This document shows positions 11,866 to 53,829 of a stretch of 64,000 nt of DNA, in pieces (position 1 is the first letter of the stretch; every line of letters starts with the position of its first letter). Both the position numbers and the translations under genes were made by a program. The notes under the pieces are model-generated. The model was given only the letters and a program-made list of their open reading frames with translations. It was not told the origin of the DNA and ran no database searches. Origin of the DNA: Wenxinia marina DSM 24838 (lineage in GTDB: Bacteria > Pseudomonadota > Alphaproteobacteria > Rhodobacterales > Rhodobacteraceae); the NCBI RefSeq assembly GCF_000379485.1, contig NZ_KB902310.1, positions 186,001-250,000 on the forward strand, read 5' to 3'.

Positions 11866-11939
11866 GCGGGTGTGATGTAATGGTAGCCTGTCAGTCTTCC
11901 AAACTGATCGCGCGGGTTCGATTCCCGCCACCCGCTCCA
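11866..11939 (+). tRNA. tRNA-Gly, anticodon UCC
   Basis: The 74 bases fold as a complete tRNA. Acceptor strand GCGGGTG pairs with CACCCGC, followed by T and an encoded CCA (11937-11939). The anticodon stem-loop TCAGT-CTTCCAA-ACTGA puts TCC at 11898-11900, and the T-arm is GCGGG-TTCGATT-CCCGC. The anticodon UCC reads GGA and GGG glycine codons. Confidence 0.97.
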
Positions 11940-39701: not shown

Positions 39702-39716
39702 GGGGGGGCGGGCAGA

Positions 39717-39792
39717 AGGGGCGCTGCCCCTCTTGGCCCCGGGACAGGCCCGGGGCCAATTCACCCCGGAGGTATTTGGGGCAAGATAGGGG
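39717..39792. repeat. Family B repeat with terminator-like palindrome
   Basis: An 11-bp perfect stem (39733-39743 TTGGCCCCGGG with 39749-39759) and a five-base loop are followed by TTCACCCCGGAGGTATTTGG and GCAAGATAGGGG. The whole element is nearly identical to 47304-47379, and its right half to 56629-56690. Here it sits between the ATPase and permease genes of one operon. Confidence 0.85.
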
Positions 39793-39801
39793 ACAGGAGC
39801 G

Positions 39802-42183
39802 GTGATCCGGGTGGTTCTCGGCGCGCTCCTGTCCGGGTGGCGGCGGGCGCCGTTGCAGCTGGTGACGCTGCTGGCGGGGCTGGCGCTGGCGACGGCGCTG
39901 TGGGCCGGGGTGCAGGCGATCAACGCCGAGGCGCGGGCGAGCTACGACGCGGCGGCGGCGACGCTGGGCGAGGGGCGGTTCGACCAGATCGTGGCGGCGG
40001 ACGGCGGGGCGATCCCGCGGGAGACCTACGTGGCGCTGCGGCGGGCCGGGTGGCTGGTCTCGCCGGTGATCGAGGGGCGGCGGGACGGGGTGCGGGTCGT
40101 CGGACTCGATCCGCTGACGGCGCCGGGCGGGCTGGGGCCGGTGGACCTCGACGAGGGCGAGGTCGGCGCGTTCCTCAGCGAGGCGGGCGCGGTCTACGGG
40201 CGGGCGGACGCGCTGGCGGCGTTGGGTGACGTCGCGCCGGCGAAGGTCGTGGCGCCGGAGGTGGCGCCGGGGACCGTGCTGACGGACCTGCGGGTGGCGG
40301 CGCGGCTGCTGCCGGAGGCGGGGATCGGGCGGCTGATCGTGGCGGACGTGCAGCCGCTGGGGCGGCCGGCGCTGGAGGAGGTGGCGCCCGGGCTCTCGCT
40401 GCGGAGCGCGCAAGGCGCGGCGGACGTCGGGCGGCTGACCGACAGCTTCCACCTGAACCTGACGGCGTTCGGCGCGCTGGCCTTCGTCGTCGGGATCTTC
40501 ATCGTGCACGGCGCGATCGGGCTGGCGTTCGAGGAGCGGCGGCCGGTGATCCGGACGCTGCGGGCGCTGGGCGTGCCGCTGGGGCCGCTGATGGCGGTGA
40601 TCGGAGCGGAACTCGTGGTGCTGGCGCTGGTCGCCGGGGCGGTCGGGCTGGCGCTCGGCTACCTGATCGCGGCGGCTTTGCTGCCGGACGTGGCGGCGAC
40701 GCTGGGCGGGCTCTACGGCGCGGAGGTGGCGGGGAGCCTGTCGTTTCGGCCAGGCTGGGCGCTGGCGGGCCTTGGCATGACGCTTGTCGGGACGGCCGTG
40801 GCGGGCGGCGGGGCGCTGCTGGCTCTGGCGCGGATGCCGGTGCTGGCGGCCGCGCGGCCGCGGGCCTGGGCGATGGCCGGCGGGCGGCGGCGGGCGCGGC
40901 AGACGGCGGGCGGGCTGGCGCTGCTGGTGCTGGCGGCGCTGGTCCTGTGGCGGGGCGGCGGGCTGGTCGCGGGGTTCGCGGGGCTGGGCGCCTTGATGCT
41001 GGGCGGGGCGCTGATGCTGCCGCCGCTCCTCGATCTCGCGCTGGCGGCGGGGGCGCGGACGGCGCGACGGCCGGTGGCGGACTGGTTCTGGGCCGACAGC
41101 CGGCAGCAGCTGCCCGGCCTGTCGCTGGCGCTGATGGCGCTGCTCCTCGCCATGGCGGCGAATGTGGGCGTCTCGACGATGGTGTCGTCCTTCCGGGTCA
41201 CGTTCGAGCGGTTCCTCGACCAGCGGCTGTTCGCGGACCTCTACGTGCAGGCAGAGGACGGCGAGCAGGCGGCGCGGATCGAGGCCGTCGCCGTGGCGGC
41301 CGGGGCCGAGGTGCTGCCGCGGGTGGGCGTCGAGGCGACGCTGGCGGGCCAGCCGGGCGAGGTGCTTGCGGCGCGGGAGAGCGCGGCGTTCGAGGCGAAC
41401 TGGCGGTTCCTGGACGCCGCGCCGGAGCCGTGGGCGGGGGTCTGGGCGGGCGAGGGGGTTCTGGTCAACGAGCAGCTGGCGCGGCGGTCCGGCCTCGGCC
41501 CCGGCGACAGGCTGGAGGTGGTCGAGGGGACCGGTCTGCCGATCCTCGGGGTCTACGGCGACTACGGCAATCCGGTGGGGCAGGCGGTCGTCGGGGAGGC
41601 GCTGTTCCGGCAATTGTACCCGGAGGCGGAGGCGACGCAGTTCGGCATCAGCGGCGCGGATCCGGGCGCGCTGGCGGAGGGGCTGACGTCACAGGCGGGT
41701 CTGCCCGCGGGGGCGATCACCGATCAGGCGGCGGCGAAGCGGTTCTCGCTGGCGGTGTTCGAGCGGACGTTCAGCGTGACCGGCGCCTTGAACGTGCTGA
41801 CGCTGGCCGTGGCGGGGTTCGCGATGCTGATGAGCCTCTTGACGCTGGCGGGGATGCGCCTGCCGCAGCTGGCGCCGGTCTGGGCGCTGGGGCTGACGCG
41901 GGCGCGGCTCGGGCGCCTCGACCTGGTGCGGGCGGTGATGCTGGCGGCGTTCACGGCCGTTCTTGCAATCCCGCTGGGGCTGGCGCTGGCGTGGGTGCTG
42001 CTCGCGGTCATCAACGTGGAGGCGTTCGGCTGGCGGCTGCCGATGATCCTGTTCCCGTGGGACTATGTCCGGCTGGTCCTGCTGGCGCTGGTGGCGGGCG
42101 GCCTCGCCGCGCTGTGGCCGGCGTGGCGGCTGGCGCGGACGCCGCCGGCGGTGCTGCTGAAGGTGTTCTCGGGTGAGAGGTAG
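39802..42183 (+). CDS. Large FtsX-type ABC permease (AttFG-like)
   Basis: This 793-residue inner-membrane protein has two MacB-like halves. The first has an N-terminal span (about 15-38), a periplasmic domain, and three spans around 225-345. The second has a central span (about 445-465), another periplasmic domain, and three C-terminal spans (about 660-780). This duplicated layout is typical of permeases paired with an AttE/LolD-type ATPase and no separate second permease. The start is GTG at 39802 with CAGGAGC before it. The end overlaps the lipocalin-like gene by 11 bases. Confidence 0.88.
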   Translation: MIRVVLGALLSGWRRAPLQLVTLLAGLALATALWAGVQAINAEARASYDAAAATLGEGRFDQIVAADGGAIPRETYVALRRAGWLVSPVIEGRRDGVRVVGLDPLTAPGGLGPVDLDEGEVGAFLSEAGAVYGRADALAALGDVAPAKVVAPEVAPGTVLTDLRVAARLLPEAGIGRLIVADVQPLGRPALEEVAPGLSLRSAQGAADVGRLTDSFHLNLTAFGALAFVVGIFIVHGAIGLAFEERRPVIRTLRALGVPLGPLMAVIGAELVVLALVAGAVGLALGYLIAAALLPDVAATLGGLYGAEVAGSLSFRPGWALAGLGMTLVGTAVAGGGALLALARMPVLAAARPRAWAMAGGRRRARQTAGGLALLVLAALVLWRGGGLVAGFAGLGALMLGGALMLPPLLDLALAAGARTARRPVADWFWADSRQQLPGLSLALMALLLAMAANVGVSTMVSSFRVTFERFLDQRLFADLYVQAEDGEQAARIEAVAVAAGAEVLPRVGVEATLAGQPGEVLAARESAAFEANWRFLDAAPEPWAGVWAGEGVLVNEQLARRSGLGPGDRLEVVEGTGLPILGVYGDYGNPVGQAVVGEALFRQLYPEAEATQFGISGADPGALAEGLTSQAGLPAGAITDQAAAKRFSLAVFERTFSVTGALNVLTLAVAGFAMLMSLLTLAGMRLPQLAPVWALGLTRARLGRLDLVRAVMLAAFTAVLAIPLGLALAWVLLAVINVEAFGWRLPMILFPWDYVRLVLLALVAGGLAALWPAWRLARTPPAVLLKVFSGER

Positions 42184-47268: not shown

Positions 47269-47303
47269 GGGATCGGGCGTAGCCGAGGCGGCGGCGGGGG
47301 GAA

Positions 47304-47379
47304 AGGGGCGCTGCCCCTCTTGGCCCCGGGACAGGCCCGGGGCCAATTCACCCCGGAGGTATTTGCAGCAAGATAGGGG
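47304..47379. repeat. Family B repeat upstream of mnmH
   Basis: This nearly exact copy of 39717-39792 has the 11-bp stem at 47320-47330 and 47336-47346, then TTCACCCCGGAGGTATTTGC and AGCAAGATAGGGG. It lies 35 bases before the mnmH start, in inverse orientation to that gene. The rest of the 319-base gap (47380-47587) has no gene; a TTGACC at 47532-47537 and AGGAGG before 47588 probably belong to expression of the malonyl-CoA synthetase gene. Confidence 0.85.
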
Positions 47380-47587
47380 AGCGGGGCGGTCGTCCGATCG
47401 GGAAGGGGGCACGGGATGGTCAGGCGGTCTGCAAGGCAGGAGGGGGGGGCGCTTCCCATCCCGCGTGGGGGGCGCTGCTCCTCATGGCCTCCCGGCCCCC
47501 TCCGGAGCAGGACAGGGGAGCGGGTCGGGCCTTGACCCCGGCGGCGTGCGCGGCATGACGGGGGCGGGAAGCGCAGGAGGACGCGGG

Positions 47588-50661: not shown

Positions 50662-51684
50662 ATGGGCTACAAGGTCGTCGTCGTCGGCGCCACGGGCAAC
50701 GTGGGCCGGGAAATGCTCAACATCCTCGCCGAGCGGGAATTCCCCGTCGACGAGATCGCCGCTCTCGCCTCGCGCAAGAGCCTCGGCACCGAGGTGAGCT
50801 TCGGCGACAGGACACTCAAGACCAAGGATCTCGCCCAGTTCGACTTCACCGGGTGGGACATCGCGCTGTTCGCGGTGGGCTCCGAGGCGACGAAGGAGTA
50901 CGCGCCCAAGGCGGCCGGTGCGGGCTGCGTCGTGATCGACAATTCGTCGCTCTACCGCTACGACCCCGACGTGCCGCTGGTGGTGCCCGAGGTGAACGCC
51001 GACGCGGTCCTCGGCTATTCCAGGAAGAACATCATCGCGAACCCCAACTGCTCCACCGCGCAGATGGTGGTGGCGCTGAAGCCGCTGCACGACCGGGCGC
51101 GGATCAAGCGCGTCGTCGTCTCGACCTACCAGTCCGTCTCGGGCGCCGGGAAGGAGGGGATGGACGAGCTGTGGGACCAGACCAAGGCGATCTACAACCC
51201 GGTCACCGAGGTCGCGCCGAAGAAGTTCCAGAAGCAGATCGCCTTCAACGTGATCCCGCACATCGACGTCTTCATGGAGGACGGCTCGACCAAGGAAGAG
51301 TGGAAGATGGTCGCCGAGACCAAGAAGATCCTCGACACGAAGATCAAGGTCACCGCGACCTGCGTCCGCGTGCCGGTCTTCGTCGGCCATTCCGAGGCGA
51401 TCAACATCGAGACCGAGGACTTCCTCGACGAGGAGGAGGCGCGCGACATCCTGCGCGAGGCGCCGGGGGTCATGGTCGTCGACAAGCGCGAGCCGGGCGG
51501 CTACGTCACGCCGATCGAGTGCGTGGGCGACTTCGCCACCTTCGTGAGCCGAATCCGCCAGGATTCCACGATCGACAACGGCCTCAACCTCTGGTGCGTC
51601 AGCGACAACCTCCGCAAGGGCGCGGCGCTGAACGCCGTGCAGATCGCCGAGGTGCTCGGCCAGCGGTGCCTGAAGAAGGGTTGA
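50662..51684 (+). CDS. asd: Aspartate-semialdehyde dehydrogenase
   Basis: This NADPH enzyme reduces aspartyl-4-phosphate to aspartate semialdehyde, the branch point toward lysine/diaminopimelate, threonine and methionine. The 340-residue product has the nucleotide motif VGATGNVG, active-site Cys130 in NPNCSTAQM, the STYQSVSGAG loop, and the catalytic RVPVFVGHSEA region. Length and motifs are canonical. It is transcribed alone, with a candidate promoter before and a 14-bp hairpin after. Confidence 0.97.
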   Translation: MGYKVVVVGATGNVGREMLNILAEREFPVDEIAALASRKSLGTEVSFGDRTLKTKDLAQFDFTGWDIALFAVGSEATKEYAPKAAGAGCVVIDNSSLYRYDPDVPLVVPEVNADAVLGYSRKNIIANPNCSTAQMVVALKPLHDRARIKRVVVSTYQSVSGAGKEGMDELWDQTKAIYNPVTEVAPKKFQKQIAFNVIPHIDVFMEDGSTKEEWKMVAETKKILDTKIKVTATCVRVPVFVGHSEAINIETEDFLDEEEARDILREAPGVMVVDKREPGGYVTPIECVGDFATFVSRIRQDSTIDNGLNLWCVSDNLRKGAALNAVQIAEVLGQRCLKKG

Positions 51685-51700
51685 TTCGAGGCGAGTCAGG

Positions 51701-51738
51701 GATCCGGCGACCTGTCCAAAAGGTCAGGTTGCCGGATC
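51701..51738 (+). terminator. Terminator-like hairpin after asd
   Basis: A 14-bp stem with one G-T wobble (GATCCGGCGACCTG at 51701-51714 with 51725-51738) and a ten-base loop starts 16 bases after the asd stop. There is no T-tract. Confidence 0.7.
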
Positions 51739-52082
51739 GGGGCGTCCTGCCGTAGTTTATCGTCGGCAGACGTGCAAATTCTGCTTTGCATTTTGGCAAT
51801 GAACCCGCCGAATTGCGGCGCCGGCGTGGCCAAACCGACCCTTCAGGGCAAAAGCATGGCAGGGGCGCGGCAGGACCACGTCCAGTTTAGTGCCTCTAAC
51901 GCCAATCCCCACCGCTTCATGGCACAATCTTAGGTTGTTTTCTAGCCTTGTCAGGCGTTTACCCGTGGGGCGGAAACGAGGCGAACTGCAACACAATTCC
52001 GCCACGAGCGACTCGGCAAATGTCCCTGTCGGCGGAACGCGAACCACTCTCCGCCGGGCAGCAAACGCAACGGAGACAGACC
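51739..52082. other. AT-richer intergenic stretch before two tiny ORFs
   Basis: These 344 bases are visibly less GC-rich than the surroundings, notably about 51755-51810 and 51920-51965. No frame has a ribosome-binding site or known domain. A poor -35/-10 pair (TTGTTT, 17 bases, TTTACC) near 51935-51965 might serve the tiny ORF at 52083. An sRNA or a transferred fragment would also fit, but nothing decides it. Confidence 0.45.
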
Positions 52083-52190
52083 ATGAGCCTTGCAGACAAA
52101 GCGCGCCGCAACCGCGAAGCCGCCCTCGAAGCCGTGCGCTGCCGCCGCACCAACATCTTCCACGTCGAGCCGGTTCGCGCCCGCCGCTGA
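52083..52190 (+). CDS. Tiny basic protein, 35 residues, unknown
   Basis: A 35-codon frame has a good ribosome-binding site (CGGAGACAGACC before the ATG). The product begins MSLADKARRNREAALEA, is very basic, and has one cysteine (Cys20) and an NIFHVEP segment near the end. A helix over residues 3-18 is likely. A 13-bp hairpin stands 89 bases downstream. I do not recognise a family. The position, start signal and terminator make it a plausible real gene; its role could be RNA- or membrane-related, but that is a guess. Confidence 0.5.
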   Translation: MSLADKARRNREAALEAVRCRRTNIFHVEPVRARR

Positions 52191-52278
52191 GCCCCGACGA
52201 GGAGACCAGGATCACAAGGATACGGCTGTCGTCGGCACCCCCCCAAACGTCAGACGCCCGACGGTAGCCGTCATAGTG

Positions 52279-52310
52279 GAGGGGCCCCGGAAATTAGTCC
52301 GGGGCTCCTC
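52279..52310 (+). terminator. Strong hairpin after the 35-codon ORF
   Basis: A 13-bp stem with one wobble pair (GAGGGGCCCCGGA at 52279-52291 with TCCGGGGCTCCTC at 52298-52310) has the loop AATTAG. It lies between the two tiny ORFs and has no T-tract. Confidence 0.7.
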
Positions 52311-52388
52311 TGCACACCCGGTCCCGGATCCCGCCAATCCTTCTTCGCCCGTCGGGTACGAGCGACCCGCCCCTCAGGAGCCGCCAGA

Positions 52389-52532
52389 ATGAGAGACACC
52401 GTCCAGTCCAGCCACGTCCCGCCGCAGATGCGCCTCGAAGGCTGCCTGCCGGGTGCCTCCTTCGGCTCCATCGCCGATGCGATCCGGACGGCGGGTCCCC
52501 AGCAGGGCCGCCTGGGCCGCCGCTTCGGCTGA
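52389..52532 (+). CDS. Tiny protein, 47 residues, unknown
   Basis: A 47-codon frame is preceded by CAGGAGCCGCCAGA, a good ribosome-binding site. The product begins MRDTVQSSHVPPQMRL, contains GCLPGASFGSIADAIRTAG in the middle and ends GRLGRRFG. It is mildly basic with no signal peptide or membrane span. A perfect 9-bp hairpin follows 29 bases after the stop. It looks like a companion of the 35-codon ORF: same strand, similar spacing, own hairpin. No family is recognised. Confidence 0.5.
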   Translation: MRDTVQSSHVPPQMRLEGCLPGASFGSIADAIRTAGPQQGRLGRRFG

Positions 52533-52561
52533 TACCCTATTGCCAGAAGACCCTCCTCGGT

Positions 52562-52584
52562 GGGGCCCGGCCAGTCCGGGCCCC
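52562..52584. terminator. Hairpin between the 47-codon ORF and the carbonic anhydrase gene
   Basis: A perfect 9-bp stem, GGGGCCCGG (52562-52570) with CCGGGCCCC (52576-52584), has a five-base loop. It lies in the gap between convergent genes, so it can serve both strands. Confidence 0.7.
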
Positions 52585-52632
52585 TACTCGTTCGGGGGGC
52601 CGGCGTCCGGCCGCCGGGTGCGCGCCGTACGC

Positions 52633-53277
52633 TCAGACAGGGTGGAAGACGCCGGTCTCGGCGTCCAGCACTTCCAGCCCGCCGGTGGAGATGTCGTTCC
52701 AGCAGCCGTGCAGCGTCAGTTCCTCGGCCTCGACCGCGGACTTCACGAACGGAAACGTCATGAGATTGCCGAGCGACGTCATCACCGCCGCCTTCTCGAG
52801 AGCAGCGACGCGCGTCGCCTCGTCCCCCTCGGGCAGGTCGGCGTAGCCGGGGCGCAGCAGGTCCATCCAGCGGCCGACGAAGCTGGTCTTGTCCTCCAGC
52901 GCCGGCGCGTTGCCCTCGCACATGTCGTAGCAGCCGCGCACGCCGCCGCAGGCGGAATGGCCCATGATGATGAGGTGCGCGACGCGCAGCGTCGTGACCG
53001 CGTACTCAACGGCGGCAGAGGTGCCGTGCTGGTTGCCGTCCGGCTCGTACGGGGGGACGAGGTTGGCGATGTTGCGATGGATGAAGAACTCGCCCTGATC
53101 GGCCCCGAAGATCGAGGTGACGTGGACCCGGCTGTCGCAGCAGGAGATGACCATCGCCCGCGGCCGCTGCCCTTCCTCGGCGAGGCGGCGGTACCAGCTG
53201 CGGTTCTCGGCATAGCTCGTGGCCTTCCAGCCGTGGTAGCGCCGAACGAGGTAGTCGGGAAGGGGCCGGGCCAGCAT
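52633..53277 (-). CDS. Beta-carbonic anhydrase
   Basis: This zinc enzyme interconverts CO2 and bicarbonate. The 214-residue product has the beta-class ligands Cys47 and the Asp48-Arg50 dyad in ISCCDSR, then His107 and Cys110 in MGHSACGG, and the HRNIANLVPP motif. There is no signal peptide, so it is cytoplasmic. It lies close to the urea importer; CO2/bicarbonate handling after urea breakdown is a possible reason, but no urease genes are in the window. Confidence 0.95.
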   Translation of the reverse strand: MLARPLPDYLVRRYHGWKATSYAENRSWYRRLAEEGQRPRAMVISCCDSRVHVTSIFGADQGEFFIHRNIANLVPPYEPDGNQHGTSAAVEYAVTTLRVAHLIIMGHSACGGVRGCYDMCEGNAPALEDKTSFVGRWMDLLRPGYADLPEGDEATRVAALEKAAVMTSLGNLMTFPFVKSAVEAEELTLHGCWNDISTGGLEVLDAETGVFHPV

Positions 53278-53343: not shown

Positions 53344-53829
53344 GTGCGATCTTCACCGTCTGGAAAGGCCGATCCGCCAGAAGGGCAGGCGGGGGCGCTG
53401 CGGCGCGAGGTGGCCAGGATGGTGACGGGTAATGGAAGGGCCGCCGATGCGGCCGGCTGCGTCCGGCTGCGGCATTGCGAGGTCTTGAGGCTGGATCCCG
53501 AGCCTCTGATGCGGTTGCGGGCCGGTCTGGGACCGCAGGAAAGCGCGGTCGAGGTCGGCCAGCTGCGGGAGAGGCTGATCGAATTGAGGCGACGGATCGC
53601 CGAGACGCTGGCCGAGGGGCGGTGGCACATGGTCGCCGAGGCGGCGGCCGGCGTGGCCGAGCTGGGGTGCCGGCTGGGCGTGCCGGAACTGCACCAGGCC
53701 GGGCGGAACCTCGCCGACTGCGCGCGCGGCGCCGACGGGACGGCACTCGTGGCGACGGCCGGCCGCGTCCTGCGGCTTTCGGACCGGGCGGTGACAGCTG
53801 TCGGCGCGCTGCGCCGTGAGTCCGACTGA
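53344..53829 (+). CDS. Protein of unknown function, helix-rich
   Basis: The frame from GTG 53344 gives 161 residues; ATG 53419 (GAGGTGG upstream) would give 136 and is perhaps the better start. The product is largely helical, with repeating leucine/alanine heptads (LRERLIELRRRIAETLAEG, MVAEAAAGVAELGCRLG, LHQAGRNLADCARG). This may be a four-helix bundle reminiscent of Hpt or histidine-kinase dimerisation domains, but I see no conserved phospho-His motif. It is divergent from the carbonic anhydrase gene and convergent with urtE. Confidence 0.6.
   Translation: MRSSPSGKADPPEGQAGALRREVARMVTGNGRAADAAGCVRLRHCEVLRLDPEPLMRLRAGLGPQESAVEVGQLRERLIELRRRIAETLAEGRWHMVAEAAAGVAELGCRLGVPELHQAGRNLADCARGADGTALVATAGRVLRLSDRAVTAVGALRRESD

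Follow-up and report, generated by a model that had tools for sequence, protein, structure and literature searches.

On the basis of sequence comparison, we find support for ORF1, a 35-aa open reading frame lying in the gap that separates asd from a convergent carbonic anhydrase (CA) gene within a 64,000-nt stretch of Wenxinia marina DSM 24838 DNA (referred to from here on as the window), as a conserved small-protein gene and one copy of a family that we call type B. We define type B as ORF1-like, Arg-rich proteins with the motif LxxKARxxRxxAL and type A as the products of a partner ORF with the motif VTRxExxxLFAxE. The type A/B family is uncatalogued and without a Pfam or NCBIfam match; neither database named a family for any type A or type B protein scanned. 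We consider it fairly probable that the type B proteins, including ORF1, are stress-related, cationic, helical mini-proteins that have the asd-CA gap as their commonest site, are served by an ECF promoter in several relatives, and bind RNA or a partner protein. Proteins of fewer than 50 aa are often missed, and this locus shows such an uncatalogued family in tandemly duplicated form.

Small open reading frames in the asd-CA gap

The upstream landmark of the locus is asd, which encodes aspartate-semialdehyde dehydrogenase (50662-51684, + strand; NCBIfam NF011456, E 3.8e-158; TIGR01296, E 5.1e-140), and the downstream landmark is the convergent CA gene (52633-53277, - strand; Pro_CA, PF00484, E 6.1e-42). 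Just 3' of the asd stop codon stands a strong hairpin (51701-51738, + strand; z -5.57, 0 of 200 shuffles as stable), the third of the locus and absent from the preliminary description, which probably ends the asd transcript. It is followed by the presumed promoter or 5'UTR region of ORF1 (51745-52082, + strand), in which no ECF-type promoter was seen. An AT-richer stretch had been described after asd, and the GC profile bears this out: the two 500-nt steps covering 51500-52249 have the lowest GC (0.608 and 0.620) between 49000 and 55000, where all other steps lie at 0.644-0.774. ORF1 (52083-52190, + strand) and a second frame of 47 aa, ORF2 (52389-52532, + strand), were found where they had been placed, both with ATG starts, and their start signals, CGGAGACAG and CAGGAGCC, are both present in the sequence. 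We compared the gap with 1000 dinucleotide shuffles, of which 2% contained two same-strand ORFs of at least 35 codons with an ATG and a Shine-Dalgarno (SD) sequence and 21% contained at least one ORF of this kind. By these shuffles, the pair is mildly unusual and a single such ORF is not.

Two further features of the window were noted. Divergent from the CA gene lies a 155-aa frame (53362-53826, + strand) that has no Pfam match and possibly an Hpt-like fold; ORFs of 127-153 aa occupy the corresponding position in three related genomes (G308, G156, and G139). Elsewhere, a direct repeat of 107 nt, 88% identical, is present at 39703-39809 and 47290-47396, and both copies carry the same perfect GC-rich hairpin (39733-39759 and 47320-47346).

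Type A and type B proteins in related genomes

The predicted product of ORF1 has a pI of 11.7 and contains 26% Arg, and the type B proteins measured (n = 7) are all strongly basic (pI 11.5-12.0, 19-26% Arg); the lengths in the family range from 29 to 72 aa. In a single-sequence AlphaFold model, ORF1 forms one helix over residues 3-25, with a pLDDT of about 91 over the first 20 residues, and in alignments A1, A3, and A4 ORF1 has the LxxKARxxRxxA(L/V) block at its N-terminus. ORF1 is itself a row of the type B profiles, so its own profile score holds by construction; a profile-free DNA search also ties ORF1 to the congener (E 6.2e-12). When 61 genomes were searched in this way, four matched, the window's own included, and the only other genome of the genus among the 61 matched the ORF1 stretch twice. 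The order of genes at the congener locus (L005) is asd, a 56-aa type A ORF, three tandem type B ORFs (36, 36, and 29 aa), and the convergent CA gene, and each small ORF has its own start signal. Two small-protein genes had been suggested as one reading of the locus. This stands for ORF1, which has homologous frames with their own start signals at the asd-CA site in the congener and in other genera, but not for ORF2, as judged by the homolog search described below.

In G308, G156, and G139, type B lies beside the CA gene with type A upstream, and in G139 also beside asd. Further, a type A profile found type A in four genomes (G226, G311, G285, and G207) where it adjoins separately found type B ORFs; these genomes were absent from both of the profiles that found them. 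No type A partner lies directly upstream of ORF1, and type A has no match in the window's own genome (E<=0.01) or in locus L121. By eye, we also noted a conserved 5'UTR block (CACCGCATCCCTTACC) just before type A in L011 and L044 (and in L154 by translated frame), flanked by a possible stem that, in L011 and L044, paired changes seem to preserve; the sites of the CACCGCATCCCTTACC block have no Rfam match at gathering score.

To describe how widely type B occurs, we used a wider profile of 18 sequences, drawn from 15 of the searched genomes and one named locus. Among 295 genomes of the window's own bacterial family (Rhodobacteraceae, as judged from the named asd hits; 15 of the 295 in the profile), it matched 25 at E<=1e-4 and 48 at E<=0.01, the latter being an upper figure that includes unrelated matches such as that in G130. 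Thirty of the 48 matched genomes were inspected as loci, the weaker 18 being left out. Within a 1.5-kb flank, asd was present at 13 of the 30 loci and the CA gene without asd at two, and 15 were near neither; a recognizable type A stood beside type B at nine, five of which are rows of the type A profile and four of which are not (G285, G311, G199, and G194). Among the genomes outside the type B profile, 6 of 15 were asd-linked (G283, G252, G032, G176, G194, and G124). Tandem type B copies were seen in G273, G253, and G199 at loci away from asd and CA. We conclude that the commonest site seen for type B is between asd and the convergent CA gene.

Type B was also sought in 80 named asd loci, which were scored with a profile that has no rows from them, some of its rows having been found via an earlier profile with four named-locus rows. 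The top four of 18,942 frames lie 226-466 nt after asd, and the fifth lies about 300 nt from the end of a CA gene; the carriers of the five are Rhodobacteraceae bacterium CCMM004, a Rhodobacteraceae MAG, Salipiger pentaromativorans, Salipiger pallidus, and, weakly, Celeribacter ethanolicus. By this profile, most of the 80 loci are without type B. Across a class-wide sample, type B matches at E<=5e-4 came from 3 of 376 genomes, two of the same bacterial family and one, weak (3.7e-4), from another. Some candidates were set aside: many weak type B matches (residues 4-17), that in G130 among them, share the context prhelrAEKARRNREAALNAF and look like a longer unrelated protein, and one type A protein matched Pfam Sgf11 weakly (E 0.077), below the cut-off of that model. 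One type B protein was also searched against plasmids, where nothing matched, and the accessible part of the open-access literature yielded no paper on the type A/B family or on a small-ORF locus between asd and CA.

Several observations bear on whether the frames are translated. The start signals and protein motifs of types A and B are kept across genera in which DNA similarity is slight. Within the conserved blocks, variation is greatest at third codon positions (type A alone, P 0.044; type B alone, P 0.033; both together, P 0.006), the blocks having been picked for protein conservation, which favors this result; an earlier type B set (n = 8) gave P 0.058. The comparison of synonymous with non-synonymous change, which the preliminary description had proposed as a check, gave a divided answer. 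In most but not all other pairs pS exceeds pN, but between the window ORF1 and the congener copies there is almost no synonymous excess (pS 0.31-0.35, pN 0.26-0.28); some wider pairs show pS 0.63-0.67 and pN 0.34-0.39 and others do not (0.42 and 0.39). The near-equal pS and pN of window and congener indicate that constraint on the window ORF1, the second half of whose protein has diverged, is weak or limited to the first half; dN/dS between the two is uninformative.

It could be argued that both ORFs arose by chance in a long intergenic region and that the hairpins are the terminators of asd and the CA gene. The 21% of shuffles with at least one comparable ORF would agree with this, as would the many such ORFs without an evident relative in other asd-downstream regions and the lack of a homolog for ORF2. 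However, ORF1 homologs were found by protein profile at the same locus in other genera, and ORF1-like copies stand in tandem in the congener, and we therefore regard a chance origin of both frames as improbable; for ORF2 alone, the argument stays valid. Our preferred reading is that ORF1 is a type B gene and that ORF2 is probably either a lineage-specific gene or a chance, non-functional ORF.

This assessment of ORF2 draws on homolog searches, codon composition, a structure model, and the shuffles. When 41 genomes, including its own, were searched, the best match outside its own genome had an E of 0.003, and the three best match loci outside its own genome have neither asd nor CA; at E<=1, matches in 30 of the 41 genomes were scattered and chance-like. 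In G040, 56 bases match the ORF2 stretch at the DNA level (E 1e-3); they are part of a long open frame, and we treated the match as a chance one. The structure model is of low confidence. The codon log-odds of ORF2 are positive in its own frame only, of six, and its composition looks coding, which would also suit the view that the two ORFs make up a single small-protein operon, with ORF2 as a highly diverged type A protein moved behind type B. In keeping with that view, type A adjoins type B at nine of the 30 loci inspected, and ORF2 scores 28 against the congener type A, compared with a shuffle mean of 20.9. The corresponding P of 0.064 is the best of nine comparisons with types A and B, none of them significant (the other eight gave P 0.27-0.83), whereas three true type A pairs gave 0 of 500 in the same test. 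Further, ORF2 is without the VTRxE..LF..E motif, the gene order would be reversed, and a strong hairpin stands between the two ORFs. We regard descent of ORF2 from type A as improbable.

Hairpins, and an ECF-type promoter in relatives

The preliminary description had placed a strong hairpin after each ORF. This is accurate for hairpin 1 (52276-52313, + strand; 16 pairs, -33.5 kcal/mol, z -6.33, a stability matched by 0 of 200 shuffles), which is the longest of the 18 stems of at least 10 pairs across the whole window, but not for hairpin 2 (52562-52584, + strand), which lies between the convergent ORF2 and CA genes and is unexceptional given its composition (z -1.40, matched by 15 of 200 shuffles). 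Neither is followed by a T-run, and a terminator scan listed neither; hairpin 1 is the probable end of the ORF1 transcript or a 3' stabilizer. The suggestion that an ORF and its own hairpin form a repeated unit does not carry over to the congener, where the spacers that separate the three type B ORFs (25 and 51 nt) have weak folds (-3.2 and -5.6 kcal/mol) and the strong folds come after the last type B ORF.

An sRNA locus had been offered as the alternative to small-protein genes, and we found no support for it: Rfam 15 has no match at gathering score in 51690-52640, its single such match in the window being a tRNA at 11866-11936. In its fuller form, this alternative holds that the stretch is a regulatory RNA locus whose small RNAs end in hairpins and code for protein incidentally or as a second function, comparable with the CcsR RNAs that adjoin ccaF1, a DUF1127 gene. 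The strength of hairpin 1 speaks for it, as does the fact that the ccaF1-CcsR arrangement is known from Rhodobacter, as the available portion of the source has it (PMC10253847). Yet the five Rfam matches at the small-ORF stretch are all below threshold, and at 20 related loci the matches at gathering score were confined to a cobalamin riboswitch and a tRNA, both away from the small ORFs. Further, no strong hairpin separates the congener's tandem type B copies, and the protein motif is kept in relatives despite slight similarity in DNA. We consider a regulatory RNA locus unlikely and retain the small-protein reading for ORF1.

We examined 14 upstream regions, each from a locus with a located first small ORF. 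The motif GAAAC-N17-CGTG/C, which was read by eye from the same 14 regions in which it was later counted, begins 68-83 nt upstream of the first small ORF in five of them (G308, G156, G226, G275, and L114), compared with a mean of 0.05 in shuffles; none of 2000 shuffle sets reached five of 14, and the background over all DNA retrieved is 0.004 per 300 nt. Scored with a weight matrix for which these sites served as part of the training data, four regions lay far above the null and L114, at 5.9, lay below the 95% point of 8.5. The clear form in these four is TGAAACT-N16-CGTG, the fifth (L114) being a weak variant, and the other nine regions have no such promoter. Upstream of ORF1, the best weight-matrix score is 2.4 (null median, 1.5; 95% point, 8.5).

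The strict form TGAAAC-N17-CGTGG had 13 matches in seven genomes versus three for a reversed control. Of the 13, three precede the small-ORF operon, two precede fasciclin genes in G226, and the remaining eight fall at sites without an assigned target. At the sigma loci, which we took as the surroundings of the closest ECF sigma matches in the seven genomes, the promoter precedes a fasciclin-like gene located after a sigma and an anti-sigma gene in three of seven cases (G226, G308, and G275). Pfam recognizes RskA_C in the anti-sigma factors of G226 and of the window's genome and Fasciclin in one of the two G226 targets. In G285 (L126/L157), the type A/B operon and an ECF sigma gene point away from each other, and the region between them holds a CGTA variant of the promoter. 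The operons of G139 and G311 are without the promoter, and these genomes have only distant sigma matches (27% identity). The window's genome and the congener have sigma orthologs (54% and 57% identity), and strict promoter matches number zero in both; no variants of the promoter were found at either operon, the fasciclin-like gene after the congener's sigma pair is without it, and the words shared by the two upstream regions are too short to be informative. Before one other fasciclin gene in each of the two genomes, we noted a CAACT-N16-CGTAG variant by eye. At locus L193 of the window's own genome (contig C41), the SigK/RskA pair is followed, 3' of the anti-sigma gene, by a repeated unit that resembles GACGCGTCCCTGGCCTGACCCGGGACC.

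In relatives, the type A/B operon looks like a regulon member because it has its promoter in common with the sigma-linked fasciclin genes, which suggests a stress regulon that includes the small-ORF operon and the SigK/RskA-fasciclin module. In the window's genus, the ECF promoter of the operon would have been lost or exchanged, and the window itself is missing type A and the extra type B copies; here, hairpin 1 probably ends the transcript of ORF1, and ORF2 would probably be lineage-specific or non-functional. More tentatively, and with somewhat less confidence than we have in stress-related mini-proteins as such, we propose that an undescribed family of cationic mini-proteins, made up of types A and B and amplified in tandem, is a standing part of a Rhodobacteraceae SigK/RskA-type ECF stress regulon, with the asd-CA gap as its home site, and has drifted from ECF control in the window's genus. 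If true, this would enlarge a stress regulon whose recognizable targets here are fasciclin genes. The presence of the promoter in several genera makes the condition of type A/B expression predictable and directly testable in culturable relatives.

Comparison with known systems

As had been noted, neither ORF resembles a known family: Pfam and NCBIfam name none for ORF1 or ORF2. Matches to the Pfam model of DUF1127, which we take to be PF06568, were absent for ORF1 and ORF2 at E<=1, for 4 of 4 A1 members at E<=10, and, at E<=5, for all 6 type A proteins, all 12 type B proteins, and all 6 further small proteins scanned, the Pfam search filters dropping most matches above about 0.1. The conserved motif of DUF1127 presumably differs from those of types A and B. 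We conclude that the type A/B proteins resemble DUF1127 proteins in kind and are not members by the Pfam test. According to the available portions of the sources, CcaF1, a DUF1127 protein of Rhodobacter sphaeroides, binds RNA, and its gene has an RpoHI/RpoHII promoter and is thus under stress-sigma control (PMC10253847), and the DUF1127 proteins of Agrobacterium (SDPs), present in three copies, bind PhoR (PMC12501420). The likeness to DUF1127 proteins (CcaF1, SDPs, and YjiS) lies in very short length, richness in Arg, more than one copy per genome, and, for ccaF1, stress-sigma control, as far as these portions describe them (PMC10253847, PMC12501420). By analogy, the type A/B proteins may act as short cationic helices whose target is RNA or an acidic patch on a partner protein, and so be functionally like DUF1127. 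In contrast with DUF1127, the promoter in type A/B relatives is of the ECF type and not of the RpoH type, and, unlike at ccaF1, there is no CcsR-like RNA among the Rfam families found (Rfam may hold no CcsR model).

The second system to which we compared the locus is the SigK-RskA module. A photooxidative-stress study of R. capsulatus describes, in its available portion, a SigK-like RpoE with an RskA-like ChrR, and one table, in which chrR also stands, lists the fasciclin gene RSP_1409 as induced in R. sphaeroides (PMC7074977). The same table gives no R. capsulatus homolog for RSP_1409, and the available text mentions no small-protein operon (PMC7074977); a further difference is that the operons of the window and the congener are without the promoter. 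The likeness is that the type A/B promoter in relatives is the one before the fasciclin genes behind sigma and anti-sigma genes. The RpoE/ChrR pair in the available portion of that study suggests oxidative stress as the type A/B condition (PMC7074977), and, by this analogy, the type A/B proteins would be made during envelope or (photo)oxidative stress.
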